Positions 7,801 through 22,876 of a stretch of 23,503 nucleotides of DNA are shown in pieces (the stretch's first letter is position 1; the number at the start of each line of letters is the position of its first letter). The position numbers and the translations under genes were made by a program. A model generated the notes under the pieces. That model did no database searches. It saw only the letters and a program-made list of their open reading frames with translations, and was not told the DNA's origin. The DNA comes from a virus, in IMG/VR virus record IMGVR_UViG_3300025086_000251, positions 1-23,503 of that record; one strand, written 5' to 3'.

Positions 7801-10800
7801 ACTTGTTTACTGAGCCTAATAAAGAAGTTGATTTTCAAAACAAAGAAATTATTGATGCTAGAATTGAAGCATTTAAACAAAGAAATAAATGGCAAATGGC
7901 TGATGGTAAGACTAGAGCTTTAGGATATGAAGAATCATTCCTTGTAGATACCTTATTATTGTCTAGTTACCATAAAGGTAAAGACTTATCTAAGTTAGAT
8001 GACTATCAAAAATTACCACCTTCTATGAAAGATATAGTTGACCCTTTAATTAAAGAAATAAAACTTGGTGGTAGTGCTACTTTGTTTGAAAAAACAGGTC
8101 TTAACTCTAGTTGGGTTAATGATACGGCTGTTGCTGAGTTTCTAAGGGAATATAGCAAACAGTTTGATTATAAGGAAAATGTCAAATTCTCTGATGATAT
8201 TGATTATAATAAAGCTTTGAATGAGGATACTAAGAGTCCAGAGCTAGAAAAGATTGCTCCAAGCGATGTTTTTGAAAAAGACTATGAAGGTATTATTGAA
8301 GTCAGAGACCGTTTAAAAGATATGGGTAAAGTAAAATTAAGCGATTTCGAAAGGAAAATGGTAGATAAGCTTATAGGTCACTTAAACTATTATCATAACA
8401 GTTTGGGCAACACAAGGTCCTTAAATCAAATAGTAAGAGGGTTAACTCGTAAAAACTTTGACGCTATGGGTGTAGAGGACTATAGAGTAGTTAATCAGTT
8501 TTTTGATGATCTTAGAGCTGGTACTGTCTTTACTAAAGCAGGCGCATTAACAAAAGATAATATTGTTAAGCTAGCTAAGCGTCACTGGATGTTATTCCCT
8601 AAAACAGTATCCAGAGAAATGATGGTTAAAGATTTTGAAATATTTACCCAACAAGGTAGGTTTCAAAATTATAAAGGTGAATGGGTAAGGGGTAATGTAG
8701 GGAGGCCTACACATACTATAGAAAATATTCAGTTTGTTCTAGGTAAAGTAGAAGCATTAGCTATTAAAATGGATGAAGAAGAAAGTTCTAAGCTTGATGA
8801 GTTATTAAAAGCTGAAACTGGATATGAGTCAATTCCAGATAATATGGGACAGTTATTTTCTCAAATTGCTACTGCAAGAAAAGATTTAAGAAACTTTTTA
8901 GATACTAATTCAAACAAAGCTCCTAATTATCATGTTAATAAAAAGATTTATGAACAAAACTTAAAAGAAGCTGAAGAATTGGCTGACTTTAGTAATACTA
9001 AGGGTACAGAGTATGCCGTCAAGACAGCAACTGGTACTTGGAGAAGAAGTGGTGAAAAGGTTGTCCAGTCTATTGACAATACTATTACTAATAGAGCTAT
9101 AGAGACTTATGGATGGGTAGCTGGTAAACATTATAAGTATGATCCAGCAATAGGTAAACATGTTAGAGATTTAAGTGTAGCAGACCCTTTAGATCAGTTT
9201 GTACGATATAAAGATAAAAAGAAAACTAAAGTAGACTATTGGTTTGGTAATGAATCTTTACCAAAAATTAAAGCTGATGAGTTCCGTTCTTATATTATGG
9301 ATATAATGAAAAAAGGGGACCTGCTTGATATGGGTATTGGTTTAGATAACCTTAGAAAAATATCACGTTCTATTCAAATAGAGCAAGTTTACAAGCTAAG
9401 GGATCTAAGCACTGATGCTAAACAAAAGTCTTTATATAATGAGTTGGCTAAAAATTTAGGTAAAGCTAAGTATGGAAGAACAGGTCAGTTTAAAGCTAAG
9501 AATTATCATCCTCATTTCATTCAAAATAAAGCAGTAGCTCAAAATGCTATGGAAGCTGCAATTAAAGAGATTAATAAAAAGACTGGAATAGCTGATGAAA
9601 TAAGAGAAAAAGAGATAGCTAGAGTAATATTAAGATACAAGTCTATGACAGGTGATTGGATTGTTAATGATGTGGCCGAGAGTAATATGTTGGATGGTGC
9701 TTACAGAGAAATTGCAGAGAGAAGGAAAGGTCAACATTTAAAGCAATTAGAATCAGACCCTATATCTGGTAATATGATGTCACGTTCTATTCATTTACCA
9801 GGTTGGAACAGAGATATTGGTTCTTGGGATATATATCAAAAGAATTTAATCGATACTTTCTACAGACAAATTGGTCAAATAATTTCAAAACAGATGTTAA
9901 ATGACTTTAATGATAGAGCATCTCAAACTTGGAAGAACCCTGAGCAGGTTAAAGCATGGAATAGTTATATCTATGATTATATAACACGTGCTATGGGCTT
10001 TCCTTCCAAATTACCAGAACAATGGATGGATGGTCCAGAGGCTGATATTATGAAAGTTAAAGGGACTCCTTATGCTTGGTTTGCTGATAACCATGTTAAA
10101 GATATGATAAATAGGATACGTGGTAAATTTGGCTTTAAAGATGATCCTAAGTTGCCTGATGAAATAAAAGGTGTTGATGAAATGGATATTAGACACTGGT
10201 CTAATCTTGAAGCTAAATATCAGATGGCTACATTGCTTGCTCACCCTAAATCTGCTGCAGGTAATATATTTGGTGGTACTGTACATACTATACAATCTAC
10301 AGGTTGGAGAAATTTCTTAAATGCTAGAAGTGTTGAACATTGGAGAACACATATAGGAAATGAAGCTAGTAAATGGAAGTCTAAAGAAGATATAGAACGT
10401 TGGGCTATTAGCCATGGTGTTGTTCCTAACTTTGTACTTTATGAGGCTGGATTAAATCCAAACTTTAAATCTGGTAAATATAAAAGATTTTTAAAAGATG
10501 CTGAGCTTTTACTTAAAAAAGACCCTATGGTTAGAGATGAAAGCCTTATTAGTCTAGCTAAAAAACATCAGATTAGTGAAGCAATATTTCAAAAGGCTGC
10601 TTGGTTTATGAGAAGGCCTGAAAGAGCATTAAGGCGTGACGCTTTTGCTGCTCATTATCTACAAGCAAGAGAGCTTTATGGACATTCTAATATGGGTTTA
10701 AACGATCCATTATTAATTGAAATGGCTAAAAAAGGTGTACAGGCTACACAATTCTTATATTCTGCTCCATATAGACCAGCATTTAGTGCAACAGCACTAG

Positions 10801-11354
10801 GTAAAGTTATGACAAGATTCCAAACATGGGCTTGGAACTCTGTTAGATTTAGAAATGATATATATAGAGAAGCTAAGCTATATGGTTTTAGAAGAGGTAC
10901 TCAAGAATTTGAAAGATTTAAAAGGCAAACTATAACAGATATGTTTGTTCTGGGTATGTCAAATGTTTTTGCATACTCATTGTTCGAAACAGCTATGCCT
11001 CAACCTTATTCATGGTTCCAAGATACTGCAGATTGGATTTTTGGAAATGAAGAAGAAAGAGACAGAGCATTTTTTGGCAATTGGCCAACTGCTGTTGCTC
11101 CGCTCCAGATGGTTACTCCGCCAGGCTTGCGGTTGGCCCCTGCCTTATTTAATTCGATGTTAACTAATGATTATAGTAGGTTAACTGATTATTATATCAT
11201 GACAATGTTTCCTTTTGGTCGTATAGCTAGGGATTTTAAAGGCGTTGTTCAAAACCCATTTTATACAATAGAAAAAGCTACTGGAATACCTTATATACAA
11301 ATGTCTAGAGAAATTAAAAAGGACTTGGATGATGAAGATAACCTTATCTCATGA
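1881..11354 (+). CDS. Giant virion protein with DxDGD RNA polymerase core
   Basis: A 3157-residue single open frame starting at an ATG preceded by GGAG at a 5-nt spacing. Residues 1376-1419 carry the landmarks of the catalytic double-psi beta barrel of multisubunit-type RNA polymerases. They are R1376-x-P1378, G-x-A-I-x-x-H1404-P1405, then A-D1415-L-D1417-G-D1419, the three aspartates that hold catalytic Mg in beta-prime, in QDE-1-type polymerases and in phage YonO. The R-to-H and H-to-D spacings (28 and 11) are close to E. coli beta-prime (25 and 10). A second, beta-like barrel would be expected N-terminal of this; a lysine-bearing GALLGKMMFHKAS near residue 1020 is only a guess. Hydrophobic, small-residue segments occur near the N-terminus (about residues 107-135), and a membrane-like stretch lies at about 3019-3045. 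Size and layout match virion RNA polymerases of crAss-like phages, which are injected to transcribe early genes. Remaining regions are unassigned. Confidence 0.9.
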   Translation: MDELDRLDQVAGFDPFYDEEATKRLLDTYYQVPHTFDDNLKTQLFDHAAFYNIPLEQQQVQKPEDDDFNLLRGIKQMGQGFVSGFTTFNVGEPTNNEYERIMRSIGSLGGFLGYVPAAPLKAMKAFQLANMARALKGNSVPLYISRKATEQAGKVASGILDTAKTAKAGAFKDVATFLSKDQAKHVAEGAFNLGVASGVGSWQYGINEALKSVAYGATTGGVFRGLSNMINKGGIPKLDQATGRYVYTASQNEDRILRAAASSLYDGLQSTMRGETTPEQIYSYLLGAYFGANETTAGQDRAMKFVNKVEKQAQTSAKELKRLNPDDGKAFTKDALVYDPRLVDGYNDLPKDVQESVVHTIAMRHGTLGAQAAMAGKTLEGIQDAIELDIANVLIDDSVRKTQIENEAVKGNVRTLDKVDAETIRRNKEEIFLTETDSQWIKTKKGLKPLSGPKLQDNELKLPLGGMQDEDLRINKKLINDSLKQLEDDSRTVAIDKNLLLDFDNRAPETSKHLRQQIVKLQLNKDKAEQRLEAADKIKSRADVDHDPDATGDTEFELSEITIEKKSNAFVDRYLSDLWKKDDAPDVIGGIRKDASKKVRKILNDNVVLDDYEGFIKKVKEEPSFDTVFGKKEIGEEAQGELRQLFLRQVQQVKSPHLSIQIHGQGGGNRGIQLVGMNKAGKNAANNIKSIGESEKLIESVYKKLYKEETGKDFNDRSLAVIDHVVKQVNGRKQEIALKDLGNKKWWSGTTASKPKYIKDAVNRTIGSALRQADDAGYYYNGGKGDTGKMYLYKYHPAIDKLTNNDISKKIAKTKELFKKSDPDAADAYEELKKNFVSKYVTTTRGKNEFKSFGTKKELEDYFDKSFLSNIEYDKALYGIDESNLIDLVKDPKTGKTKEVPITFEEWLANNSSIRDAKGFNKRNQIWLTDGFELDNNYFKSEYKRMGGRIPIENDQLKFRLYEDSEVDGLTSNDPALLYTEASDGQILIEKSVLDAINKAYGHPYSGQNKAFLVDNDPKHGALLGKMMFHKASDKASKWMRDNNIHMLVPKSAAKEFGSRKIGNLKVNDDLTVDYKGGEDYGMNISAIKGSLSEKQTQHMLDPQKIPKQLMSNLIPHSWSEIDQGTIDNFFKDIIGEKHLGETEWNNKVLETLDSEVIDPRDEADILRNLDKVGLDVVVDAIKNNNHPQFVAKLYQKILHSNTDNLKLQYEEGEIESPEFREAMAEAKNYTSVINRMMTVYPDLAIFLHKDVRNYLQAAMRNFVVNRVIRPKWDYSVSVRMRGYDPWIAKELPDMGMDMTPGRKGIVKDRAYLKSEYGVENPDQLFYLDNAYADVEYDVSDLFVGAKKNKKMKLKDIWAQRDKPKVKEFFKTISLRVPMDSISGAHELAFAGFTGIDGHGAIFHPRTMRALGGADLDGDKAFVMFGMKKEYRDMYHKNKDEFKDPDTLITQDNKTANISLVGKSILADMLNPKDTHDARILDLIAKNQPISYRDLFTLTNDGGNNDSYKSFISKYTPEARMDISNKAVTGRDQLGPAVVAKQILNASYDAIKNNPVQRYVNKDGKILTRAQYDGLSKTGKKLWKEDNRESLIFKLYGDDNEYEIFLEPRTSKEELAFSREVSRAQIAFGSDPLDELGLTGANHFYDTLFHSLFKIDWNGNEGIKTQFSPTFNAKGGTIGTFRNFNRGYFSRNFDQNRRFYNHEIKEFADKIQFLEDNQKGNMLSKMVEVLQPLDYSDDIAGRIDPEKLKDRYAAHEKLAVELKAINDAFERTDKKTQKKIRGLLGRTSFRSIQSTVSQKVMGQELYRLSKRQELSENETMYRDFFKDLGGRWDSNYFKAHSFPWEHTSYFNKKGTKELDHVKYDRAVDNVWNFRSDSVSKVYRQGTDFIQNDAMDRASAIQLMKAINMARKAGVSDEFINVAANFVQGIKNTASAQRQASIVKSFEKEGVMDDQGNDTRSIMKVDGNNKARVINLFTEPNKEVDFQNKEIIDARIEAFKQRNKWQMADGKTRALGYEESFLVDTLLLSSYHKGKDLSKLDDYQKLPPSMKDIVDPLIKEIKLGGSATLFEKTGLNSSWVNDTAVAEFLREYSKQFDYKENVKFSDDIDYNKALNEDTKSPELEKIAPSDVFEKDYEGIIEVRDRLKDMGKVKLSDFERKMVDKLIGHLNYYHNSLGNTRSLNQIVRGLTRKNFDAMGVEDYRVVNQFFDDLRAGTVFTKAGALTKDNIVKLAKRHWMLFPKTVSREMMVKDFEIFTQQGRFQNYKGEWVRGNVGRPTHTIENIQFVLGKVEALAIKMDEEESSKLDELLKAETGYESIPDNMGQLFSQIATARKDLRNFLDTNSNKAPNYHVNKKIYEQNLKEAEELADFSNTKGTEYAVKTATGTWRRSGEKVVQSIDNTITNRAIETYGWVAGKHYKYDPAIGKHVRDLSVADPLDQFVRYKDKKKTKVDYWFGNESLPKIKADEFRSYIMDIMKKGDLLDMGIGLDNLRKISRSIQIEQVYKLRDLSTDAKQKSLYNELAKNLGKAKYGRTGQFKAKNYHPHFIQNKAVAQNAMEAAIKEINKKTGIADEIREKEIARVILRYKSMTGDWIVNDVAESNMLDGAYREIAERRKGQHLKQLESDPISGNMMSRSIHLPGWNRDIGSWDIYQKNLIDTFYRQIGQIISKQMLNDFNDRASQTWKNPEQVKAWNSYIYDYITRAMGFPSKLPEQWMDGPEADIMKVKGTPYAWFADNHVKDMINRIRGKFGFKDDPKLPDEIKGVDEMDIRHWSNLEAKYQMATLLAHPKSAAGNIFGGTVHTIQSTGWRNFLNARSVEHWRTHIGNEASKWKSKEDIERWAISHGVVPNFVLYEAGLNPNFKSGKYKRFLKDAELLLKKDPMVRDESLISLAKKHQISEAIFQKAAWFMRRPERALRRDAFAAHYLQARELYGHSNMGLNDPLLIEMAKKGVQATQFLYSAPYRPAFSATALGKVMTRFQTWAWNSVRFRNDIYREAKLYGFRRGTQEFERFKRQTITDMFVLGMSNVFAYSLFETAMPQPYSWFQDTADWIFGNEEERDRAFFGNWPTAVAPLQMVTPPGLRLAPALFNSMLTNDYSRLTDYYIMTMFPFGRIARDFKGVVQNPFYTIEKATGIPYIQMSREIKKDLDDEDNLIS

Positions 11355-11527: not shown

Positions 11528-12223
11528 ATGTCTTTTGAGCATGTCATCCCATTTAAAGAACAATTTTTAGCTGCAGATCACGGTTGGTCGCCTAATACTA
11601 AAGGAATATATCAAAAAAGCCTTAACCGATATGCGCTTGATGGTTTTCCAGATACTAACTATAGAGCAATGATTATTAGATGCTTAAATAGGCTTAGTAA
11701 ATGGTGCTTAGAGGAAGGATTAACAGATAATCATGTTCCTATGACAGGTGGGAATAAATTTACCCATAAAACGCGTGTTTTTAATGATGAAGAGTTAAAA
11801 AAAATATTGAACCTAATAACTCCACTACATTTCCAAGAAATGGTGAGGTTTATATATTATACTGGTGCCAGGCAATGTGAGGTACGTTCTTATGACTTTG
11901 AAAACCATGGACATTATATTAAAGCTAAGAGTAAGGGAGAGGATAGGCTTATTAGAACAAATCAACAAGCTCAAGAAGTTTTACAAAGAGGAGAGAAGTG
12001 GAAATATACTGCTTGTACTGCAAGTAGAGCTTTTAGGGACAACATGAAAAAATTAGGTATTAAGGGAACATTGCACGACTTAAGGCGTACGTTTGGAATC
12101 AAAATGATAAAAAAAATAGGTATCTATGAGACGTCCAAATTACTTGGACATAAAAGCGTAACAACAACTGAGAAACACTATGCTCCCTTAATGGCTATTG
12201 ACGTTGATGATTTTGTTTTATAA
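11528..12223 (+). CDS. int: Tyrosine recombinase (phage integrase), compact
   Basis: Site-specific integrase expected to recombine attP with the host tRNA gene. All catalytic residues are visible: R115 in TGARQCEV, a lysine at 134 or 136 in AKSK, H183-x-x-R186 in LHDLRRTFG, H208 in LLGHKS, and the nucleophile Y218 in EKHYAP. At 231 residues it is shorter than most phage integrases (usually over 300). A brief SAM-like core-binding region fills residues 1-75, and no arm-type-site-binding domain is evident ahead of it. AGGAG lies 6 nt before the ATG. It is the last plus-strand gene and faces the early genes convergently, separated by a GC-rich hairpin. No excisionase is recognised nearby. Confidence 0.95.
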   Translation: MSFEHVIPFKEQFLAADHGWSPNTKGIYQKSLNRYALDGFPDTNYRAMIIRCLNRLSKWCLEEGLTDNHVPMTGGNKFTHKTRVFNDEELKKILNLITPLHFQEMVRFIYYTGARQCEVRSYDFENHGHYIKAKSKGEDRLIRTNQQAQEVLQRGEKWKYTACTASRAFRDNMKKLGIKGTLHDLRRTFGIKMIKKIGIYETSKLLGHKSVTTTEKHYAPLMAIDVDDFVL

Positions 12224-14879: not shown

Positions 14880-15135
14880 AAGCTTCTCCTCTAGTTTCAG
14901 GATAGTGCTGCTGACACTTTCTGCGTGATCTTGATATATTAAAAGCAGAAGAACAAACTCCTTCTTTCCAACATCTCATTAGTTCTTTAGCTGTCATTTT
15001 AGATATATCGCGTGCAGGCTTAGCATTTTTAAGTTGCCAAGCCCATATTGCGTATATCAAATCAACATCACTGTTTGATAGTTCGGGTTTTGCTACTATA
15101 AACCCTCTAACTACATTTACCATGTTAACTCTCAT
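14764..15135 (-). CDS. Hypothetical protein coupled to HNH endonuclease
   Basis: A 123-residue product, not recognised. The N-terminal half is helical and well formed (SNSDVDLIYAIWAWQLKN, then KMTAKELMRCWKEG). The C-terminal half is Arg/Lys/Ser-rich (ISRSRRKCQQHYPE onward) and may bind nucleic acid. The start ATG overlaps the HNH stop codon as ATGA (4 nt), indicating coupling. The last 116 nt overlap the next gene out of frame, where the composition turns more polar, so the true end or function of that tail is uncertain. The short HNH-linked protein could be a regulator or partner of the nuclease; this is inference only. Confidence 0.6.
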   Translation of the reverse strand: MRVNMVNVVRGFIVAKPELSNSDVDLIYAIWAWQLKNAKPARDISKMTAKELMRCWKEGVCSSAFNISRSRRKCQQHYPETRGEAYVKKQKHQERIKADVKRATSEATRVLSEGSVDSGRKSA

Positions 15136-15611
15136 TTAAAATCATCCCCCTTTGCTAATTTTCTTAATACATAACGTTTCATGTTGTCAGGCCTAGTTTC
15201 TAAAAACTTTAACAATGATTTGTATTCTCCATCTGTTAAATGACCTTTTCTAGTATTACATCTTTTACAAATTATGGTGAGATTTTTAGGAGTTGAATCG
15301 CCCCCCAAAGAAAGAGGATACATATGGTCGCATACAATGTTAGATACCACAAGTACATCAGGGCAGTACCTACACTGCTTCCCATAAAACTTAAGAAACA
15401 AACTTCTAATTTGTTCCAGGCTAATATCAAATACGACTTCATATTCTTTGCTCCTTTTCTTTAGAGAAGATTTTAAGGTAGAGGTTTTCTTCATAAGTCT
15501 ATGGAAGATTTTTTTAGCGAAATGCCCGTGGTGTTTCTTTAACACCTTTGAAAATTTGTCTTCCCATGACTTAACAGCTCCTCTACGTACTATGTTCTTT
15601 TTGTATGCCAC
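15132..15611 (-). CDS. HNH endonuclease
   Basis: The 159-residue protein has a basic helical N-terminus (residues 1-55, nine Lys in KKIFHRLMKKTSTLKSSLKK) that probably contacts DNA. A zinc HNH core follows at about 95-140: CRYC, then VCDHMYPLSLGGDSTPKNL, then CKRCNTRKGH. DH and the downstream N and H/K residues form the metal-binding catalytic element, and the two CxxC pairs hold structural zinc. Translation uses GTG at 15611, with GGAGG 7 nt upstream; an ATG two bases earlier is out of frame and closes quickly. In phages such enzymes may be homing nucleases, terminase partners or nucleases of host DNA. Its place among replication genes argues against a terminase role but does not settle which. 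Confidence 0.85.
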   Translation of the reverse strand: MAYKKNIVRRGAVKSWEDKFSKVLKKHHGHFAKKIFHRLMKKTSTLKSSLKKRSKEYEVVFDISLEQIRSLFLKFYGKQCRYCPDVLVVSNIVCDHMYPLSLGGDSTPKNLTIICKRCNTRKGHLTDGEYKSLLKFLETRPDNMKRYVLRKLAKGDDFK

Positions 15612-15623
15612 ATTTTGCCCTCC

Positions 15624-15782
15624 TTATATCCAGGCAAAACTCAGAAATGTATTAAACTTTAGAAATTTGAATGATATAGTAATAGATGTTTCATCATCTT
15701 GTTCTACTTTACTAAAACCAAATCCTATCGTTTTAAATAACAATATCATCATAGCACCATCATTTTTCGTTATCTGTATCAT
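15624..15782 (-). CDS. Hypothetical 52-residue protein
   Basis: A short frame starting MIQITKNDGAMMILLFKTIG and ending FLSFAWI. The ATG shares one base with the stop of the Gp157-family gene (TAATG), with GGAGG 6 nt upstream inside that gene. It stops 12 nt before the HNH gene's GTG. The product is beta-rich and hydrophobic but lacks a clear membrane helix. No family is recognised. The coupled start and strong ribosome site make it a real gene despite its size. Confidence 0.65.
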   Translation of the reverse strand: MIQITKNDGAMMILLFKTIGFGFSKVEQDDETSITISFKFLKFNTFLSFAWI

Positions 15783-16333
15783 TAAGACCTCCTTACACGT
15801 TTAGCTTTTTCTATTCTAAAACCAGAAATACCCATACCATTTTCTGCTGCTTCAATAGCCTCTTTTCGAGCCTTTTTCTTATCGATTTCTACTTTATAAC
15901 GTTTGTAGTTATCGCTTATAGCATCTTCATCAGTAACTTGTAATGGCCCCCAGGTTTCAAACATTTTATACCTAGTCGTGTCAGTTTGGAATACACCATC
16001 ATTACCACATGTTTCTATGATCATTGGTAATAGTTGTTTATTAAAATATTCCTCTGTTTTCTCAATAGACTTCTTTCTATTTCTTAAACGAGTTATTTCA
16101 GTCATGTAAGAATCGATTTCTGCCTTTATGAGGTCTTTACTTTTATTCATTTCAACTATCATATAGTCGATACCGCTTGTTTTATTAGCGATAAGGCTTT
16201 TGACTTTTTCAATCGAGTCATCAATGAGAGCCAATGGACCAGGATTATCTGGTTCCATAAGCTCTTGATTGTCTCTATCGATTTGAAGGTCAATTAAAGA
16301 ACTTATTAAGTCCTTTGTGGTTGGTTTACTCAT
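15782..16333 (-). CDS. Gp157-family phage protein
   Basis: A 183-residue protein with a long central coiled coil (about residues 55-100, SGIDYMIVEMNKSKDLIKAE then RLRNRKKSIEKTEEYFNKQL). The signature of the Siphovirus Gp157 family follows: a short beta region (RYKMFETWGPLQVTDEDAIS), then YKVEIDKKKARKEAIEAAEN and a GISGFRIEKAKRVR end. Family members occur in phage replication/recombination clusters, often with SSB-like and ERF/Sak proteins; the biochemical role is unclear, though some are linked to resistance against other phages. GGAGG lies 4 nt before the ATG. The start overlaps the primase-helicase stop by 8 nt, tying it to replication. Confidence 0.85.
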   Translation of the reverse strand: MSKPTTKDLISSLIDLQIDRDNQELMEPDNPGPLALIDDSIEKVKSLIANKTSGIDYMIVEMNKSKDLIKAEIDSYMTEITRLRNRKKSIEKTEEYFNKQLLPMIIETCGNDGVFQTDTTRYKMFETWGPLQVTDEDAISDNYKRYKVEIDKKKARKEAIEAAENGMGISGFRIEKAKRVRRS

Positions 16334-18017
16334 ACGTCCTCCGTAATCTAAAAGAAGGTGTCCATTCTAATTTTGCATCGAATAGTTCACCGTCTGTGTT
16401 TTTGAATAACTTAATTTCCTTAACAGATGATTTTGCTTGTCCATTAAGGCCAATTACTTTTCTAGAAGCGTTTTCTATTGCTCCAGAACCTTTACCAGCA
16501 TATAAGTCAAGCACTTCGTTTCTGCTGTACTCTCTACTTACCTGCGATACTTGTACTATTATAACATCTAGATTAACAGCCATACTTGATAATCCGTGAG
16601 AAATATATTTGATTTGTTCATACTCACCTTTTACATGTGGTGGTGTTTCAACTAAATCAATATAATCTACGATTACCATAGATGGATTTAATTCTGATAT
16701 TTTCTTTTGTATCTGCTCTAAAGTAGGGGGGACAGTCTGTACGTTTATGTGCTTTACTTTGTCTGCTACTAATGGATATATCGATTGATAGTCAGCCGTG
16801 ACTGATTGCTTGCTTTGATTTGCAGCGATTTGTAATGATCGTCTGTGCATATACCAACCTGCAAGCTCTAATGATAGATATAACGTAGGGACTTGGGCAT
16901 CGACATTTATCCTGTCATTTAAATGGTCGTATCCTAATGCAATATTGTGAGCTAAAGTAGTTTTACTACTACCAGTGGGCCCAAATATTGTAACTAGATC
17001 TCCAGGATAAAAGACACAATCTTCTTTTACACCTAGTTGCTTTGAAAACTCATAGCATCTACCTGTAAAATCAGTTGTAAGTCTGCTTTCTAGCTCTTTT
17101 TGCATATCTTTAGCAGTTAATACCTCTACAGAATAATCTTTCCTTTTGTAGTAAATACATTTAGGATTACAAAGATTAGACATAAGTTCGTCATTGCAGC
17201 CATATTGGTATCCTTTGTTATAAGCATACTCAACATTAGTTACTACTTCCTGATCATTTAGTTGTCCATCGTTCCATTCTAACATTGCAGCTTTCGTTGC
17301 AACAGAAGGGACACCATGTCTTCTAAAATGAGATATTATTCTGAGCATTGTTTTGTGTCTTGAACCTTGTTGTGGTCCTTGATTGTACATTGCTTGTATG
17401 CATGTTGCGACTTTTCTTGGTTCCATCACTTTACCCATTTTACGCGTCATCGATACTTCACTTACTTTTAAATCTTCCAATTCGCCATCTCCCATAAGCT
17501 CTGTATATGGAAATTCGTATCTTGGAGTCTTTGCTAAGTCGTGAATTTTCTGCCATGCGCTTGACATGATTTCATTATAGGTCAGTGGAATCTTATATAG
17601 TCCAGTCTTTTTGTTGATCGTATGTGCTACACGATAAAGTCCTGTTCTCATATAAACCATAGAGTCAATTTCTGGAAATAACTTCATCATAGTTTCTTTC
17701 ACATGAAATGGTAACTCTTCACAAGGATTAAAATTGAAAACTGAATTTGGAATTACTATATGGTATCCAGAGCCAGAGAAATATACCCGAAATGCCGTGT
17801 CAGGAACGTCTAACTCTGCTGTAAGCGAATAAACAATAGATTGACATCTTTTGAGAGTATAATCATCTGTATTTTGCTCTCTGTCAATATCAATTAATAT
17901 ATTATCTATAGCCCTGGAACCATAATAATTCCTTAAGCTGTTGTTGTTTGAATCTGCAAAATCAACAGCCGAATGATCATATAAATACATAGATCTGTAT
18001 AGTGGTATCCCATTCAT
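16326..18017 (-). CDS. AEP-type primase fused to RecA/DnaB-like helicase
   Basis: Numbering from the ATG at 18017 (563 residues). An archaeo-eukaryotic primase domain fills about residues 1-200: catalytic DID (43-45), SGSGYH (81-86), a third acidic EID (near 117-118) and the Arg/Lys strip YRVAHTINKKTGLYKIPL. A Cys cluster follows (C274, CNPKC at 283-287), probably metal-binding. The C-terminal ATPase has Walker A GPTGSSKTT (346-354) and a Walker B-like MVIVDYIDLVE. It would lay primers and unwind DNA at the phage fork. The frame stays open up to 18140, but residues encoded there come from a terminator-like hairpin, so the start is placed below it. The ribosome site there is weak (AAAGAG, 15-20 nt upstream), and the next Met nine residues on is an alternative. 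Confidence 0.9.
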   Translation of the reverse strand: MNGIPLYRSMYLYDHSAVDFADSNNNSLRNYYGSRAIDNILIDIDREQNTDDYTLKRCQSIVYSLTAELDVPDTAFRVYFSGSGYHIVIPNSVFNFNPCEELPFHVKETMMKLFPEIDSMVYMRTGLYRVAHTINKKTGLYKIPLTYNEIMSSAWQKIHDLAKTPRYEFPYTELMGDGELEDLKVSEVSMTRKMGKVMEPRKVATCIQAMYNQGPQQGSRHKTMLRIISHFRRHGVPSVATKAAMLEWNDGQLNDQEVVTNVEYAYNKGYQYGCNDELMSNLCNPKCIYYKRKDYSVEVLTAKDMQKELESRLTTDFTGRCYEFSKQLGVKEDCVFYPGDLVTIFGPTGSSKTTLAHNIALGYDHLNDRINVDAQVPTLYLSLELAGWYMHRRSLQIAANQSKQSVTADYQSIYPLVADKVKHINVQTVPPTLEQIQKKISELNPSMVIVDYIDLVETPPHVKGEYEQIKYISHGLSSMAVNLDVIIVQVSQVSREYSRNEVLDLYAGKGSGAIENASRKVIGLNGQAKSSVKEIKLFKNTDGELFDAKLEWTPSFRLRRTYE

Positions 18018-18046
18018 ATGACTTGTTAAGTCACTCTTTGGGATTA

Positions 18047-18070
18047 AAACCCCCCGTTTCCGAGGGGTTT
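18047..18070 (-). terminator. Terminator-like hairpin inside replication operon
   Basis: On the minus strand AAACCCC pairs with GGGGTTT (7 bp, 10-nt loop) about 20 nt after the stop of the ssDNA-binding gene, ending in TTTT. The T-run is short, so it may attenuate rather than stop transcription, lowering primase-helicase relative to the upstream genes. Confidence 0.5.
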
Positions 18071-18090
18071 CTTTCGCTATTTCTATATAT

Positions 18091-18690
18091 TTATAGGTTT
18101 GCAATATCAATATTTCCAGTTGGTAATGATCCTGTACCATTCATTTGTACAGATTGAGCTGGATTATTCATATCTTTAGGAGCCTCTTTTAAGAATCCTT
18201 TAGATTTCATGAAATTGATATAGCCTTGCAGTTCTTCTTCAGACTTAGCTGATACAGCAAGTACTTTATTATGTACTCTAGTATAAGCTTGACCATTCTT
18301 AGCTAACTCTTTATAAACATAAATTGTTAGAGAAGTACCAATGTATTGGTTTAAATGAGCCACAATATCATCTATTGGTTTTTCATTTTCATCAACCCAT
18401 TGTCCTAATTGGTTTGGTCCACCCATTTCACCAACAGCATCAAATAGATGTGTAATCTTCTTTAAAAGACTACAATCTTTTATGTTGCCATTAGGCTCTT
18501 TATCAAAAGAACCTGCAACTGCCATTCTTCTTGGGTAATCTGAACCTTCCACAGTGAACTCAACGTTTAAATAAACGTCTGCCCATGCATATTTAGAAGA
18601 TTCATCGGTAATTGCTGATATAGTACCTGTTTTGATACCTAACCAGTCACCACCACCACTTTTCTTAATTTCTGATCTCATTATTGCCAT
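18091..18690 (-). CDS. Putative ssDNA-binding protein paired with Sak4
   Basis: A 199-residue protein with a beta-rich first 150 residues (KTGTISAITDESSKYAWADV, VYLNVEFTVEG, RRMAVAGSFD, GTSLTIYVYKEL) consistent with an OB fold, and a flexible Asn/Pro/Gly tail (DMNNPAQSVQMNGTGSLPTG). It lies directly behind a Sak4-like ATPase, with stop and start sharing one base (TAATG). Sak4 genes are commonly coupled to single-strand-binding proteins in phages. AAGGAGG lies 7 nt before the ATG. The tail lacks the acidic SSB tip, unlike the small protein at 13292-13546. The family is inferred from fold pattern and neighbour; no sequence signature is decisive. Confidence 0.65.
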   Translation of the reverse strand: MAIMRSEIKKSGGGDWLGIKTGTISAITDESSKYAWADVYLNVEFTVEGSDYPRRMAVAGSFDKEPNGNIKDCSLLKKITHLFDAVGEMGGPNQLGQWVDENEKPIDDIVAHLNQYIGTSLTIYVYKELAKNGQAYTRVHNKVLAVSAKSEEELQGYINFMKSKGFLKEAPKDMNNPAQSVQMNGTGSLPTGNIDIANL

Positions 18691-19553
18691 TATTTATCCT
18701 CCTTATAGGATTTTATTTCATTGATTATTGTTTGATAATTAAAAGGTAGTACTTTATTTGCTAAAGGCTTTAATCGTGAGCCAACCATTCTTTCATCATA
18801 GCCTTCAAATGATACTTCATAATCTTGACTTGATTTATTTATTGTTGCATATCCGATTACATCTGCTTTAGCGCATAATACTCTACCTAGTCCGCTTGGT
18901 AGGGAAGGGGCTAATTGTGCTTTATCATCAGTCATAGCTGTTTGCTTTGCATGTGATATAAGAATAAGATTACCGCCTACTTTCTTTAAGAAATCTTGAA
19001 GTTTCTTAACTATATCTGCGTTCTTTTTCTTAGCTGCAGCCCAATCTGCTCCCCATGAGCCTTCACCCATATTTTCAATACCTTGGTCAGCTTTAACAAC
19101 ATCTTCAATCCAGCTATTAACTTGATCTATAGTGTCTATAACCACTGTATCATAAGGGTATTCGTCCCAGTTTTTCATTAAATCAGCTAGTATTTCTGCT
19201 AATGAATAAACATGACATTGCTTACCTTTATCTGGTCCACCTCTGTAATAAAATCCCCTCTCATTTGTGGGGACTATTTCTATTACTTCTGCACCATTTT
19301 TAGTAACTGCAACACCATCTTTCATTTGCACCCTTACTGGCGGGTTTAATGCACAGCATGTAACAACGTTAGCTTTATCTACAAAGTCTGCTCCAAGGTC
19401 AGTATCAATAACTAATACTCCTTCTGAACCTTTTGGACTCCAAGATGAGGCTTGTGTTGTTTTGCCACTTTTTGGTTGGCCTATGAAATACCATGTAATA
19501 CCACCTGGTAAATCATCAGACCATTGGTTTTTGATTTGATTTACTTTTAACAT
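18690..19553 (-). CDS. Sak4-like RecA/AAA ATPase, recombinase
   Basis: The 287-residue P-loop ATPase has Walker A GQPKSGKTT (residues 25-33), Walker B YDTVVIDTID (134-143), and a sensor strand NLILISHAKQ (195-204), followed by LPSGLGRVLCAKADVIGYA. This is the layout of phage nucleotide-binding/Sak4 proteins (AAA_24-type), single-strand annealing or RecA-like recombinases acting with an SSB. The length is typical. An unusual insert at about residues 72-112 (VRVQMKDGVAVTKNGAEVIE to GGPDKGKQCH) separates the P-loop core halves. GGAG sits 4 nt before the ATG. The gene follows a structured 116-nt gap, the only break between the ubiquitin-like cassette and replication genes, so it may have separate expression control. 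Confidence 0.85.
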   Translation of the reverse strand: MLKVNQIKNQWSDDLPGGITWYFIGQPKSGKTTQASSWSPKGSEGVLVIDTDLGADFVDKANVVTCCALNPPVRVQMKDGVAVTKNGAEVIEIVPTNERGFYYRGGPDKGKQCHVYSLAEILADLMKNWDEYPYDTVVIDTIDQVNSWIEDVVKADQGIENMGEGSWGADWAAAKKKNADIVKKLQDFLKKVGGNLILISHAKQTAMTDDKAQLAPSLPSGLGRVLCAKADVIGYATINKSSQDYEVSFEGYDERMVGSRLKPLANKVLPFNYQTIINEIKSYKEDK

Positions 19554-19669: not shown

Positions 19670-20353
19670 CTACGCTACACTTTTTTCTATTTTTTCTGAG
19701 GGTTTTACGAGATGTTCTCTACGCAAACTCACAGGACCTAACGACCCCCAAATGTACGCATAATACAATCTATTTTGCAAGACATTAAATGCCTGTGAGA
19801 GGCCAAATGATGCTGCTAGACTACCACAAAAGATTGTGTGTTTTGCTGTACAAGGATCGTCTGCGATAGAAGAAGAAGGGACATAAGAATCCATGAAATA
19901 ATCGTTCTCTCTTGTAACGGTTATTATCTCATAGCCTAATGCCCCCATTCTCATATCTATTAAGAACTGTCTATCTGGGTTTTCTTTCCATTGGTTGTAT
20001 ACAGCAAGTCTACATTCCATGTTATCAGGAGTTAGAAATACTTTATTTTCCAATGGCATCCCAGTTTGCCAGAATTGAGGTCTCATTTTTACAGTAACTT
20101 TCTTATTTATTCTTTTAAGAGTAATTTCTGCAGCTGCTACTTTAGGTTGATTTAAAAATCCTTCAGGCCATGATGTTGTGGATAAATTGTGTTCCTCTAA
20201 CATATCAGGGTCCCAGACTGTTATCTTTTTAAATCCCATTATTGCAGCGTTCTGTAGTAATGCAGAGCCAATACCACCAGCTCCGATCACTGTTATCTTA
20301 TCTAGCCTTGATTGGTCGATAAGGTCTTTGTTACGCAGGTATCGGTCTGCCAT
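19670..20353 (-). CDS. ThiF/E1-like ubiquitin-activating enzyme
   Basis: A 227-residue adenylating enzyme, expected to activate the Ubl C-terminus with ATP and pass it to the E2. The Rossmann loop is GAGGIGS (24-30), followed by the acidic strand end WDPD (47-50), N56-L-S (where E1s usually have N-L-x-R), K71 in PKVAAAE, and a D110-x-x-x-x-R motif. Candidate catalytic cysteines are C168 and C176 in PCTAKHTIFCG; C114 is a third. It is a minimal adenylation domain: no zinc-binding CxxC pairs and no ubiquitin-fold domain for E2 docking. The Arg normally after N-L-x is Thr here, which may alter ATP binding. It overlaps the JAB gene by 23 nt and has AGGAG 9 nt before its ATG. Confidence 0.9.
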   Translation of the reverse strand: MADRYLRNKDLIDQSRLDKITVIGAGGIGSALLQNAAIMGFKKITVWDPDMLEEHNLSTTSWPEGFLNQPKVAAAEITLKRINKKVTVKMRPQFWQTGMPLENKVFLTPDNMECRLAVYNQWKENPDRQFLIDMRMGALGYEIITVTRENDYFMDSYVPSSSIADDPCTAKHTIFCGSLAASFGLSQAFNVLQNRLYYAYIWGSLGPVSLRREHLVKPSEKIEKSVA

Positions 20354-21218
20354 ATTCGTCTACTCCTATCTTTTTCAGTTTCTTATTTAACTGTGTTTTG
20401 GTTATCTTACCTCTTTCATAGTCCATCATCACGTCGTCAAACTCATCGAATAGATCCCAGCTATACATTTCTTCTTGTTGTCTTTTATTTAAGCCACTAT
20501 AAGAAGCGTTATAACTAAGCGCGTCAATATGTTCTTCGTATCTGTCTTGTTTTGTTTCTTTTTGTTGGCCTTTTTGTTGGCCTTTAGACACATAGCTACC
20601 AAACAACTGTGCTTGACCTATATTGTTATATTTATTCTGTTTGCCACGTTGATAAAGCGCCAATGTGTTTGGTTCAGCTTTCTTATTCTTTTTAATAAAA
20701 GCTGCTTGTTCTTTCCATGACTTTTCTACATGATAAACTTCTTGTACTTCAATATCATCTATTTCTTGAATATGGACTTGACCAAACTGATCGGGGTATG
20801 AAACACCAAAATGCCATTCTTTATCTTTCTTTGTTGATACTACTAATGAATAATAAAAGTTTTCATTAGCACCATCTATACATTGCTGCTCATCAGTCCC
20901 AGAGTAAAATGCTCCCATGTTATGATGTGAATGTATATTTCCCTGTACCCAAGATTTACCTATTTCTGGATGCTTTTTCCTTAGTTTTGAATATATTTTA
21001 ATAAGGTCTTCGCCATCCCAATCAGTATTACTATGCGTACCTAAGTCTAATGGGTGCCAATATTCTAATGTTATAATCGATGGAAAACCTTCTTCATCTT
21101 TAACATGAGAATACCAAGCTGGGCCTGACCATTCAACATTCTTAAATGTTTTCAGAAAATAGCGTACCTTGTCCAATTGAGTCGGGGATATTACTAATTT
21201 CGGGTCTGTTGAGCTCAT
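20331..21218 (-). CDS. JAB/JAMM metalloprotease (deubiquitinase-like)
   Basis: The 295-residue protein has a JAB/MPN domain in residues 1-155. The zinc site is complete: E29 in VEWSG, then HSH (96-98), seven residues, S106-x-x-D109, i.e. the canonical E...HxHx7SxxD. It should trim the Ubl precursor and/or cut isopeptide bonds. Residues 156-295 are a charged helical tail with a GQQKGQQK duplication and acidic YSWDLFDEFDDVMMD, not part of known JAB cores; it may bind substrate or the E1. AGGAGG precedes the ATG inside the E2 gene, with 77 nt of out-of-frame coding overlap. It overlaps the E1 gene by 23 nt. Intact active-site residues argue for a working enzyme. Confidence 0.92.
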   Translation of the reverse strand: MSSTDPKLVISPTQLDKVRYFLKTFKNVEWSGPAWYSHVKDEEGFPSIITLEYWHPLDLGTHSNTDWDGEDLIKIYSKLRKKHPEIGKSWVQGNIHSHHNMGAFYSGTDEQQCIDGANENFYYSLVVSTKKDKEWHFGVSYPDQFGQVHIQEIDDIEVQEVYHVEKSWKEQAAFIKKNKKAEPNTLALYQRGKQNKYNNIGQAQLFGSYVSKGQQKGQQKETKQDRYEEHIDALSYNASYSGLNKRQQEEMYSWDLFDEFDDVMMDYERGKITKTQLNKKLKKIGVDEYGRPIPA

Positions 21219-22518
21219 TAATGAACCTCCTTTTATCTTTTTCTAGTTGTTGTATAGCGATATTGTATGCATGCTTTTTAATTCTACTAAACTCTCGTTT
21301 TACCTCATCTTCATTTATACTTTCTTTAGTGTTGTTTAAGTATGTTTTAGCACTAGCTAAATGAGGTGACTTTTTTCTTAGTAGTATTAAGAAGTTTGAT
21401 AAATGATGACCTAGATATTTTAGTTCTAATCCAAATCTATTCCTTTCTCTTCGATTAGAATAAGGATTCACATAATATCTTTTAACTTTTGACCAAAGAA
21501 CTTTAGTTTTTTCGTAATGCTCATCATCTATTCTAGAAGTATATCTAGTATTTACCCTGAAACTTCTATCAGTTTTAGTAGCATATAGGATTGTAGCCAT
21601 TTCTTTCAGCTCTTTTAGTACTTTAGGACTCATATCACCTTCATATTGAACTTGCAAAGACATAAGAAATATTCTTACAAATTCAAAAGCTTGATATAAT
21701 GGTAATTCTCCTATAACTATAGCTGCTTTTACATATCCTAACACTTTTAAAACCTGGTCATCACCATGATCTACTACTCCTATGCTGTGATAATCTTTTA
21801 AAACAGGATATTTAACTTTCTTTACCCAATTTTTTAAAAGATGCCTTTCTTGACCTTTGATTTCAATCTTTGTCCAAGCTGTTAAGTCTTTAGGCCAATT
21901 CCACCTCATAGGATCATATGCTATTTCTCTTATTGATGTTGCATTAAGTTCGTTTTCAGTTTCTCCAGAAAATATTTGACGAATTTCCTCATAACTCTGT
22001 AAGTGTCCAGACATTTCAAATATCTTGTATTCTAATCCTTTACTATATGTGCTTCTACCATTATATGCTGATAAATAAGCTCTCATAATTGAAAAGAATT
22101 GAATAAAGTTATTAGCTGTAAATGCTGTCTGTAAATCTCCTTGAAAACTTCCTAAACAGGGGATACCACTGCTTAAATGAGGATGTACTGCATCTACTAC
22201 TACTTCATTACCATCTTCTGGTTCTATCATAGTATAAAAGTGGTAATTTGGAACACTGTCGACTATGTTTACACTTAACCAGTAGTCTCCCAATTGGAGG
22301 TGTGGTCTGTATTTACAAACAATATCCTTAAATCTTATGAGTATTTTATTTTCTTTTACGATATTGCTGTCATCACTGTCTCTATCATATTGGATAACAT
22401 CTAATTCGTACTCTTTTATCTCATATTTTTTAGAAAGATAGGTTGCTTGATTTTGTAAACTCATCTCAGGTGTTATTTCTGGTAGATTATTGTGCCATTC
22501 TAATAATAAATCTTCCAT
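21142..22518 (-). CDS. E2-like ubiquitin-conjugating protein, long C-terminal domain
   Basis: A 458-residue protein. Residues about 35-155 show the E2/UBC pattern: beta strands (ELDVIQYDRD, KILIRFKD, YWLSVNIV), then HPHLSSGIPCLGSF (112-125) with C121 as the predicted thioester cysteine, followed by a hydrophobic helix (ANNFIQFFSIMRAYLSAYNG). HPxx...G..CLG is the conserved signature of prokaryotic E2-like families. Only one other cysteine (C68) exists. Residues about 160-458 form an unassigned, mostly helical domain, ending in an Arg/Lys-rich helix (EKDKRRFINELNRPE); it has no cysteines, so it is not a RING. It could select substrate or replace an E3. AGGAGG lies before the ATG. Ordinary E2s are about 150 residues, so the extra domain is notable. 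Confidence 0.87.
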   Translation of the reverse strand: MEDLLLEWHNNLPEITPEMSLQNQATYLSKKYEIKEYELDVIQYDRDSDDSNIVKENKILIRFKDIVCKYRPHLQLGDYWLSVNIVDSVPNYHFYTMIEPEDGNEVVVDAVHPHLSSGIPCLGSFQGDLQTAFTANNFIQFFSIMRAYLSAYNGRSTYSKGLEYKIFEMSGHLQSYEEIRQIFSGETENELNATSIREIAYDPMRWNWPKDLTAWTKIEIKGQERHLLKNWVKKVKYPVLKDYHSIGVVDHGDDQVLKVLGYVKAAIVIGELPLYQAFEFVRIFLMSLQVQYEGDMSPKVLKELKEMATILYATKTDRSFRVNTRYTSRIDDEHYEKTKVLWSKVKRYYVNPYSNRRERNRFGLELKYLGHHLSNFLILLRKKSPHLASAKTYLNNTKESINEDEVKREFSRIKKHAYNIAIQQLEKDKRRFINELNRPEISNIPDSIGQGTLFSENI

Positions 22519-22540
22519 TTAACCTCCTTGGTTAGAGAAG

Positions 22541-22613
22541 GGGAGTAGTGCGCTAGATGTCTTAGTAGGGATATAAGGTCGTTAAGTCCTCATATAATAC
22601 CCATACTACTCCC
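22541..22613 (-). promoter_or_regulatory. Structured 73-nt leader between Ubl and E2 genes
   Basis: GGGAGTAGT (22541-22549) and ACTACTCCC (22605-22613) are a perfect 9-bp inverted repeat. Inside, on the minus strand, ATATGAGG pairs with CCTTATAT (one G-U) around a 9-nt loop, extended by GGG/CCC. The structure lies 23 nt after the Ubl stop and ends about 13 nt before the AGGAGG of the E2 gene. It could set a high Ubl-to-enzyme ratio by attenuation or RNA processing. It does not match a tRNA: no T-loop motif. Confidence 0.5.
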
Positions 22614-22636
22614 GTTCTGATTTCAATTGCCGACGA

Positions 22637-22876
22637 CTATTTTCCTGACTTATTCTTAGCTTTCATGATTACAATAGTATCACCTTCTTGTAAGTTCATT
22701 GCAGCTGTAGTACGTCTTTCTTCACCATCATCTCCAGTTACTTCAATGATAGCTTCGCCTTGATCAACTTGATACTCTCTAAGTACGTCAGCTAACTTTG
22801 CGAATGATCCTGATTCAAATGTACCACCTCTTGTATATGATGATACTTCTACGTTTACTGTGTTATTTGCTGGCAT
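22637..22876 (-). CDS. Ubiquitin-like modifier (beta-grasp)
   Basis: A 79-residue protein with a beta-grasp pattern: strand NTVNVEVSSY (5-14), strand GGTFESGSF (17-25), helix AKLADVLREY (26-35), strand EAIIEVTG (41-48), a turn, RRTTAAMNL, and the closing strand EGDTIVIMKA (64-73). EGD plus hydrophobic strand is the usual end of ThiS/MoaD-type Ubls. It ends N-K-S-G78-K79: removing one Lys would expose a C-terminal Gly, the group an E1 adenylates. That makes it a likely precursor for the JAB peptidase two genes down. It has no cysteine and no Gly-Gly. A strong GGAGG lies 6 nt before the ATG. Fold assignment rests on pattern plus the unmistakable E2/JAB/E1 context. Confidence 0.82.
   Translation of the reverse strand: MPANNTVNVEVSSYTRGGTFESGSFAKLADVLREYQVDQGEAIIEVTGDDGEERRTTAAMNLQEGDTIVIMKAKNKSGK

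Follow-up and report, generated by a model that had tools for sequence, protein, structure and literature searches.

Introduction

In BilABCD operons the genes follow the order ubiquitin-like protein (Ubl), conjugating enzyme (E2), JAMM peptidase and activating enzyme (E1). BilA carries two Ubl domains, BilB is an E2 with a CEHH motif and the E1, BilD, combines an inactive and an active adenylation domain with a Cys domain (PMC11354881). The E2 of the PRTRC type (Prok-E2_D, row 6d) has no His before its Cys (PMC1779556), and the Bil and Bub pathways and the cyclic-oligonucleotide-based anti-phage signalling system (CBASS) have been tied to anti-phage immunity (PMC10097602; PMC13373217). Prokaryotic Ubl conjugation has so far been studied as a cellular and mostly anti-phage activity; here, a complete predicted cascade that is owned by a phage is described. 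It lies at positions 19670–22876 of IMG/VR record IMGVR_UViG_3300025086_000251, a 23,503-base fragment of an uncultured phage that was analysed over its whole length and is referred to below as the window.

The four genes encode a Ubl, an E2-like protein, a JAMM peptidase and an E1 and, judged from their sequences, very probably form a working Ubl conjugation cascade. The closest relatives of this cassette are unrecognised operons of crAss-like and Flavobacterium phages. The reading preferred here, to which a probability of about 0.55 is given, is that reversible Ubl conjugation has become fixed in the phage replication module, with a deconjugase that would be tethered to the host sliding clamp and would act at replication forks.

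The four genes of the cassette

Open reading frame (ORF) calls placed the genes where the original prediction had put them, all on the minus strand and overlapping or closely spaced: the E2 and JAMM frames overlap by 77 nt and the JAMM and E1 frames by 23 nt, and a gap of 118 nt separates the Ubl and E2 genes. Ribosome sites of the AGGAGG type precede the Ubl, E2 and JAMM genes, and a weaker AGGAG precedes the E1 gene. The further claims that the Ubl/E2/JAMM/E1 set is complete and that its catalytic residues are intact were supported by domain matches, by residues invariant across the phage homologues (E2 C121, the JAMM E/HxH/S/D set and E1 C168), by synteny in dozens of contigs and by the presence of a homologous operon in cultured phages.

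The Ubl (22637..22876, minus strand) has 79 residues. An AlphaFold2 model (mean predicted local distance difference test score, pLDDT, 75) showed the β-β-α-β topology of a β-grasp fold, and its top Foldseek matches were nearly all ubiquitin, SUMO or MoaD-type folds, with a probability of ~1.0 and an E-value never better than 2.5e-3. In Pfam, ThiS was matched by seven of 25 family members (best 1.8e-4); relatives also matched Rad60-SLD and SAMP2. The window protein ends in ...KNKSGK, i.e. -KSG-K and not -GG. S77 and G78 are invariant across diverged phage homologues and are followed by no, one or two residues (K, I, R, N, V, D, L, S, C, RA or NI), giving tails such as KSG, KSGK/I/R/N/D/L, TSGC, ESGS and KSGRA; in a sister lineage the tail is NNKTGG with one or two further residues. 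Because the Gly is followed by up to two extra residues, processing would be needed in most of these proteins, and the tail pattern is that of a putative precursor requiring trimming, with S77-G78-K79 (22640..22648, minus strand) as the presumed processing site. The β-grasp Ubl with a C-terminal Gly that is generic to Ubl systems is thus present.

The E1/ThiF-family adenylating enzyme (19670..20353, minus strand; 227 residues) matched Pfam ThiF with an E-value of 1.3e-16. A profile of the family matched the structures of UBA5, UBA6 and UBA1 (3e-15 to 7e-14) and also those of SUMO E1, ThiF, MoeB, Cap2 (7e-9) and BubCD (5e-8), and it was nearer to the conjugating E1s (UBA5, UBA6, UBA1 and SUMO E1) than to ThiF/MoeB. 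Residues G24, G26, S30, D48, D50, K71, R115, D133 and C168 are invariant. C168, the predicted E1 thioester cysteine (19850..19852, minus strand; PCTAKHTIF), stands in a C-(S/T/A)-x-K context, and the cysteine does not vary among 30 E1s from marine, crAss-like and Flavobacterium phages; the second generic feature of a Ubl system, a ThiF-fold E1 with a predicted catalytic Cys, is also found. In three crAss-like E1s (L074, L075 and L076) an N-terminal extension of ~100–150 residues precedes the adenylation domain.

The JAMM/JAB peptidase (20331..21218, minus strand; 295 residues) matched Prok-JAB at 5e-4, below the cut-off, and all 28 of the 28 family members examined matched this Pfam model (best 4e-7). 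The zinc-site motif of JAMM/MPN+ peptidases (E, HxH, S and D) is present as E29...H96-S-H98...S106...D109, all five residues being invariant.

The E2-like protein (21142..22518, minus strand; 458 residues) consists of a UBC-like part (residues ~1–150) and a helical C-terminal domain. Among 38 sequences with identities down to 14%, only H112, P113, H114 and C121 are invariant. H112-P113-H114 (22177..22185, minus strand) occupies the position of the canonical HPN motif and C121 (22156..22158, minus strand), the predicted thioester cysteine, lies in G-x-x-C-L; the motif HPH-L-x-x-G-x-P-C-L-G as a whole resembles HPN-V-x-x-x-G-x-x-C-L of eukaryotic E2s. Sister-lineage proteins have HPF or HPY with TLCLSS or TCFGSF. 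In the AlphaFold2 model (pLDDT 87.5, predicted TM-score 0.80) a helix, a strand meander, the HPH, the Cys and two helices follow each other in the order of a UBC domain. When 45 marine E2 cores were compared with three human E2s (UBC) by HHalign, the score was 25.7 and the predicted thioester cysteine was aligned with the UBC catalytic Cys, whereas 60 column shuffles reached at most 13.6 (0/60 as good). Marine and crAss-like E2 cores scored 34.0 against each other (shuffle maximum 16.5). An earlier comparison of 18 E2s with UBC had been marginal, with 3/100 shuffles as good, and the result became clear only with the 45 diverse marine cores. The protein is therefore treated as an E2, divergent and ending in a helical domain, a prediction from sequence and model that is the weakest call of the four. 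Residues 112–160 are its best conserved part (49–82% identity, against 25–50% for most of the remainder), while the E2 body outside 112–160 evolves faster than any other part of the operon, with 25–41% identity over residues 37–111 where the E1 has 74–89%; between the window and the related locus L004 the E2 is 52% identical and the E1 and the Sak4-like recombinase are 89% identical.

Homologous operons and retention

Searches of IMG/VR yielded 70 loci with the E1 and 362 with the JAMM peptidase, and the order Ubl–E2–JAMM–E1–Sak4–SSB–helicase is kept in nearly all loci in which the contig reaches far enough. Retention was counted from the helicase, a starting point independent of the cassette, in contigs that were long enough upstream. 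In this one ocean clade the cassette is core and always adjoins Sak4, SSB and primase-helicase. The E1 was present in every one of the 56 contigs that extend 2.3 kb or more upstream of the helicase, which excludes chance, and the JAMM peptidase in all 50 with at least 3.2 kb. The E2-like protein was recovered in 31 of 33 contigs by pattern and in 33/33 by eye, the two misses representing one lineage (L215), which has HPHSSSGNDLCMG and is of the HPH..C type; a small Ubl stood at the expected place in 28/33.

Among cultured phages, tblastn searches with the window E1 and JAMM sequences matched Flavobacterium and crAss-like phages. The window E2 found no match in INPHARED; crAss-like E2s are present in that database, so a single-sequence search fails at such a distance. 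In crAss001 (Crassvirales, Steigviridae), gp79 carries a Ubl domain that contains KKIKSG and continues into a long extension, gp78 is an E2-like protein (YMHSHVSS...QTPCTG), and gp77 and gp76, annotated 'metalloprotease' and 'thiamine biosynthesis protein', are here assigned as the JAMM peptidase and the E1. The layout is common to DAC15, frurule, cr85, cr106, cr111, cr126, cr128, Dulem 41 and Fpv1/Fpv3 and is shared by a crAss-like contig in a Clostridium metagenome-assembled genome (MAG), with the exceptions that the Ubl gene of cr106 and the JAMM gene of Fpv1 are interrupted and that the E2 pattern was unmatched in cr111. E2s of the crAss type were counted in 45 phage records and the JAMM peptidase in 74. 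The cassette of the cultured phages is surrounded by primase, Sak4, uracil-DNA glycosylase (UDG), endonuclease and exonuclease genes. The cassette is thus found in the replication modules of two phage groups that otherwise share little. In a relative of the window that is of complete size (G004, 53.9 kb), portal, terminase and head proteins were recognised with PHROG; the cassette lies far from their genes and on the opposite strand, and the portal gave distant matches to Vibrio and Pseudomonas phages, with no crAss-like phage among the matches listed.

Selfish elements account for the two interruptions. In Fpv1 (L073 5988–6936) a group I intron (43.4 bits to RF00028, E 2.6e-9, under the gathering score), which has a 249-residue endonuclease-like ORF on the other strand, interrupts the JAMM gene immediately ahead of HSH; the JAMM gene of Fpv3 is intact (L227). 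In cr106_1 (L224 1405–2608) a gene annotated as an HNH endonuclease apparently divides the Ubl gene. Such elements commonly inhabit conserved phage genes.

Beyond phages, a plasmid search with the crAss-like JAMM found none. A scan of cellular genomes with a JAMM alignment (A5; the alternative A4 was insufficiently conserved) returned six MAG loci, of which one is a crAss-like phage contig and two clearly belong to a different, Prok-E2_D system. In these two, L143 3464–12083 (Lentisphaerae MAG) and L144 3711–8994 (Thermoplasmata MAG), Prok-E2_D, JAB and ThiF genes adjoin a reverse transcriptase gene; L143 also has a ThiS-like Ubl, and both JAMM proteins carry HSHxxMGAFFSGTD. They represent a different Ubl system coupled to reverse transcriptase. 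In a further locus, L141 4148–8612 (Izimaplasma MAG), genes for a Ubl-like protein, a 297-residue protein, an E1 and a JAMM peptidase with GIY-YIG-like homing ORFs between them lie in apparent phage DNA.

No published account of a phage-owned Ubl/E1/E2/JAMM cassette was found in a literature search that excluded preprints and most subscription journals, and the main text of a genome analysis of crAss-like phages (PMC7886860) does not mention ubiquitin, JAB or ThiF. The novelty of a phage-owned Ubl cassette is accordingly provisional.

A predicted sliding-clamp-binding motif in the JAMM peptidase

Partners of the bacterial β-clamp bind through QL(S/D)LF or weaker QLxLF-like peptides, often at the C-terminus or in unstructured regions (PMC9690074, PMC4549789). 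Such peptides, scored as Q..[LMI]F or Q..[LI].F downstream of the JAMM catalytic core, were counted in 114 JAMM proteins clustered at 50% identity into 28 clusters, and the expectation was obtained by shuffling the post-catalytic region. The motif occurred in 15 of the 28 clusters, against 1.9 expected; in the controls it occurred in 0/51 E1s and 3/43 helicases. In the window it is the linker peptide QAQLF (residues 202–206; 20601..20615, minus strand), a predicted clamp-binding peptide. Marine variants (QGTLF, QGSLF, QSSLF, QRSMF, QTHMF, QSYLF and QTTIF) lie mostly 83–97 residues downstream of the JAMM aspartate, and crAss-like variants are QGELPF, QEELPF, QNELPF, QTNLPF and QSTLDF. Most of these motifs match the full clamp consensus weakly. 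On this evidence the chances that the JAMM peptidase docks on the host sliding clamp through its linker peptide are judged to be even. L139, the crAss-like phage contig found within a Clostridium sp. MAG (SUG825), has the full cassette, and its JAMM protein carries QLSLF, a perfect clamp consensus.

Proposed mechanism and alternatives

In the mechanism proposed, the JAMM peptidase would remove the one or two residues that follow the conserved (S/G)-Gly, leaving the glycine as the C-terminus, and the E1 would adenylate this glycine before taking the Ubl onto C168. C121 of the E2, with HPH instead of HPN, would then receive the Ubl and the E2 would transfer it to a target lysine; no RING E3 was seen, and substrate selection would fall instead to the helical C-terminal domain of the E2. 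The JAMM peptidase would later strip the Ubl from the target. With the clamp peptide that it carries in many phages, at least maturation and removal would probably take place at host β-clamps on replicating DNA. The likeliest targets would be the clamp, host Pol III, fork proteins or the phage Sak4, SSB or helicase, as with ubiquitin and SUMO on PCNA. The predicted docking of the JAMM peptidase and the replication operon together make fork proteins or the clamp the likely modified proteins; that fork proteins are the main targets is suggested tentatively. Gene content and order, invariant residues, the predicted Ubl fold, retention and the motif statistics are results of this analysis; the chemistry is inferred from the named families, and clamp binding and the target are a further inference. 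Early expression is suggested only by the position of the cassette.

Several observations weigh against this account. About half of the JAMM clusters lack the clamp motif. The Ubl of crAss-like and Flavobacterium phages continues for well over 100 residues after the SG, so that either the extension is cleaved there or the Ubl is not conjugated. For the E2, the crAss-like proteins alone do not beat shuffles when compared with UBC by HHalign, the window protein had no Pfam match and none of 38 members matched a Pfam E2 family, Prok-E2 included, and Foldseek of the full-length 458-residue model against the PDB returned no UBC match. The profile searches by which the original prediction was to be checked succeeded for ThiF, for Prok-JAB in the family members and for ThiS in relatives, and failed for Prok-E2; of the structure models, that of the Ubl bore out the β-grasp and that of the E2 the UBC-like order, without a Foldseek match. 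Foldseek of the E2 model against BFVD matched unnamed viral proteins only, a PDB sequence search with E2 profiles gave chance matches only, and a scan of 299 Bacillota genomes for Prok-E2_B was uninformative, as it gave no match and its controls were equally silent. In favour of the account, a search of 17 relatives of 46–55 kb that covered PolA, PolB and β-clamp domains, and whose positive controls gave matches, detected none of the three; use of host Pol III and the host clamp is therefore expected.

A second candidate clamp motif, a C-terminal QxxLF in the E2 (QGTLF in the window), was dropped as evidence. It occurred in 22/42 E2s against 8.5 expected; this too counts against the account, since QGTLF falls within the 77 nt shared by the two genes, where the conserved D/N-K-V-x-Y-F of the JAMM protein dictates its letters from the other frame. 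At 21142–21218 of the window the end of the E2 (QGTLF) and the first helix of the JAMM protein (DKVRYF) constrain each other, and this is conserved among relatives.

The best-surviving alternative, although improbable, is counter-defence, in which the Ubl would be conjugated to host immune proteins or the JAMM peptidase would strip tags from components of CBASS, Bil or Bub. The link between bacterial Ubl pathways and anti-phage immunity (PMC10097602; PMC13373217) and the rapid evolution of the E2 body outside residues 112–160, as an arms race would give, speak for it. Genes of this kind are usually patchy, whereas the present cassette was never absent (E1 56/56), is embedded in the replication module of two phage groups that are unrelated and has a JAMM linker motif that points to the sliding clamp.

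Distinctly less probable is a sulfur-carrier pathway, with the Ubl as a ThiS-like thiocarboxylate donor that the ThiF-like E1 would activate and the 'E2' as another cysteine enzyme, thiolating a nucleotide, tRNA or DNA. Sets of ThiS, ThiF and JAMM are known from sulfur pathways (PMC1779556), in Pfam the Ubl and the E1 come nearest to ThiS and ThiF, and the E2 fold was not confirmed by Foldseek; but the E1 profile resembles E1s that conjugate more than it does ThiF/MoeB, the proteins scanned in the window included nothing like a desulfurase, rhodanese or PAPS reductase, and an invariant HPx..GxxCL in a UBC-like topology is hard to explain without an E2.

It is slightly less probable again that the Ubl is attached to structural proteins of the phage or serves as a virion mark, as is thought for the Ubl and JAMM proteins of lambda-type tails. 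Against the precedents of Ubl and JAMM pairs in lambda/T1 tail-assembly clusters (PMC1779556) and of Bil, which acts on phage assembly (Hor et al., 2024, as cited in PMC13373217), stand the clamp motif and the place of the cassette in a replication operon, which in G004 is far removed from the genes for portal, head and terminase and runs on the other strand.

Defence cargo for superinfection exclusion, Bil- or PRTRC-like, is very improbable: the gene order is that of BilABCD (components, PMC11354881), but the defining features of Bil and PRTRC are missing, PADLOC saw only weak E1-domain similarity, and universal retention with fixed synteny in the replication module likewise tells against the proposal in the original prediction that competing phages are excluded by an accessory trait.

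Among the roles proposed, the clamp-binding motif in the JAMM peptidase favours one in replication, and the cassette is probably a part of phage replication rather than a stray defence gene. A wider view, in which Ubl signalling docked on the bacterial clamp is the phage counterpart of PCNA ubiquitination/SUMOylation in both ocean phages and gut crAss-like phages and controls host polymerase or clamp traffic, is speculative and somewhat doubtful. crAss-like phages rank among the most abundant human gut viruses and cultured members carry the cassette; as crAss001 and DAC15 grow on laboratory Bacteroides, the role of a phage-owned Ubl system is directly testable, with the clamp motif as a concrete first target. 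The E1/E2/JAMM set also widens the sampling of early ubiquitin-type enzymes.

Neighbouring genes in the window

The plus strand of the window starts with large, mostly unmatched ORFs. On the minus strand, running leftwards, small ORFs are followed by the Ubl, E2, JAMM and E1 genes and then by those of a Sak4-like recombinase (18690..19553; phrog_124, 3.6e-24), an SSB-like protein (18091..18690; phrog_378, 0.0035, and conserved synteny), a DnaB-like primase-helicase (16326..18140; PF03796, 2.6e-14; phrog_19, 9e-33), a Gp157/Gam-like DNA-end protein (15782..16333; PF05565, 4.5e-8; phrog_253) and an HNH/endonuclease VII-like protein (15132..15611; phrog_1035, 6e-16). The cassette had been placed beside phage replication genes, and the Sak4, SSB and primase-helicase genes do adjoin it. 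Many Sak4 homologues have QKxLPF near the C-terminus (25/44 with a clamp-like motif, 2.2 expected; NKVLPF in the window copy), which may represent a clamp-like peptide or may instead be structural.

On the plus strand, a tyrosine recombinase/integrase is encoded at 11528–12223 (PF00589, 1.6e-8), and the phage may be temperate or may resolve its genome by recombination. A 3,157-residue ORF without a Pfam match at 1881–11354 (plus strand), for which the relative G008 has a 2,977-residue counterpart, probably encodes a giant virion protein.

Comparison with known systems

The operons of crAss001 type, including those of Fpv phages, resemble the cassette in the JAMM signature EWSG...HSHxxM...FSGTD, a ThiF protein with an invariant CxxK, an E2-like protein with HSH...PCLG, a Ubl domain with KxxSG, the gene order and the replication neighbourhood. 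They differ in that their E2s have HSH and a longer loop, their Ubl is extended by well over 100 residues and their neighbours are primase, UDG and nucleases; their products are annotated only as metalloprotease, thiamine biosynthesis or hypothetical proteins.

The parallel that the original prediction drew with PRTRC and Bil systems held for gene order, which is that of BilABCD, and failed for membership of either on the features tested. PRTRC and other Prok-E2_D loci likewise cluster Ubl, JAMM, ThiF and E2-like genes, and HSHxxMGAFFSGTD recurs in the JAMM proteins of the Prok-E2_D loci L143 and L144. The window nevertheless scores far below the PRTRC model cut-offs (ThiF, 18 against 144.75 bits; A, 15.7 against 101.8), the PRTRC-B and PRTRC-C models had no match in it, no ParB-related protein was present among the proteins scanned in this fragment, and the E2 family has an invariant HPH and no Prok-E2_D match. 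With Bil the cassette shares four genes in the same order and a JAMM peptidase expected to mature the Ubl C-terminus, but it has a 79-residue single Ubl domain, an HPH-x6-C E2 and a 227-residue single-domain E1.

From type II CBASS and Bub the E1 fold was matched (Cap2 and BubCD); those chains have 458–600 residues with the E1 part starting at residue 184 or 376, whereas the E1 and E2 of the window are separate genes accompanied by a dedicated Ubl. No CD-NTase is present in the window annotation, and PADLOC reported nothing for the Ubl, E2 and JAMM proteins beside the weak similarity of the E1. The modification of PCNA by ubiquitin and SUMO resembles the proposed system in that Ubl enzymes dock on a sliding clamp, and differs from it in that clamp and motif are here bacterial; it serves as a working analogy only, with no homology claimed. 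The cassette is thus predicted to work like the PRTRC, Bil and CBASS systems without being a member of any of them.

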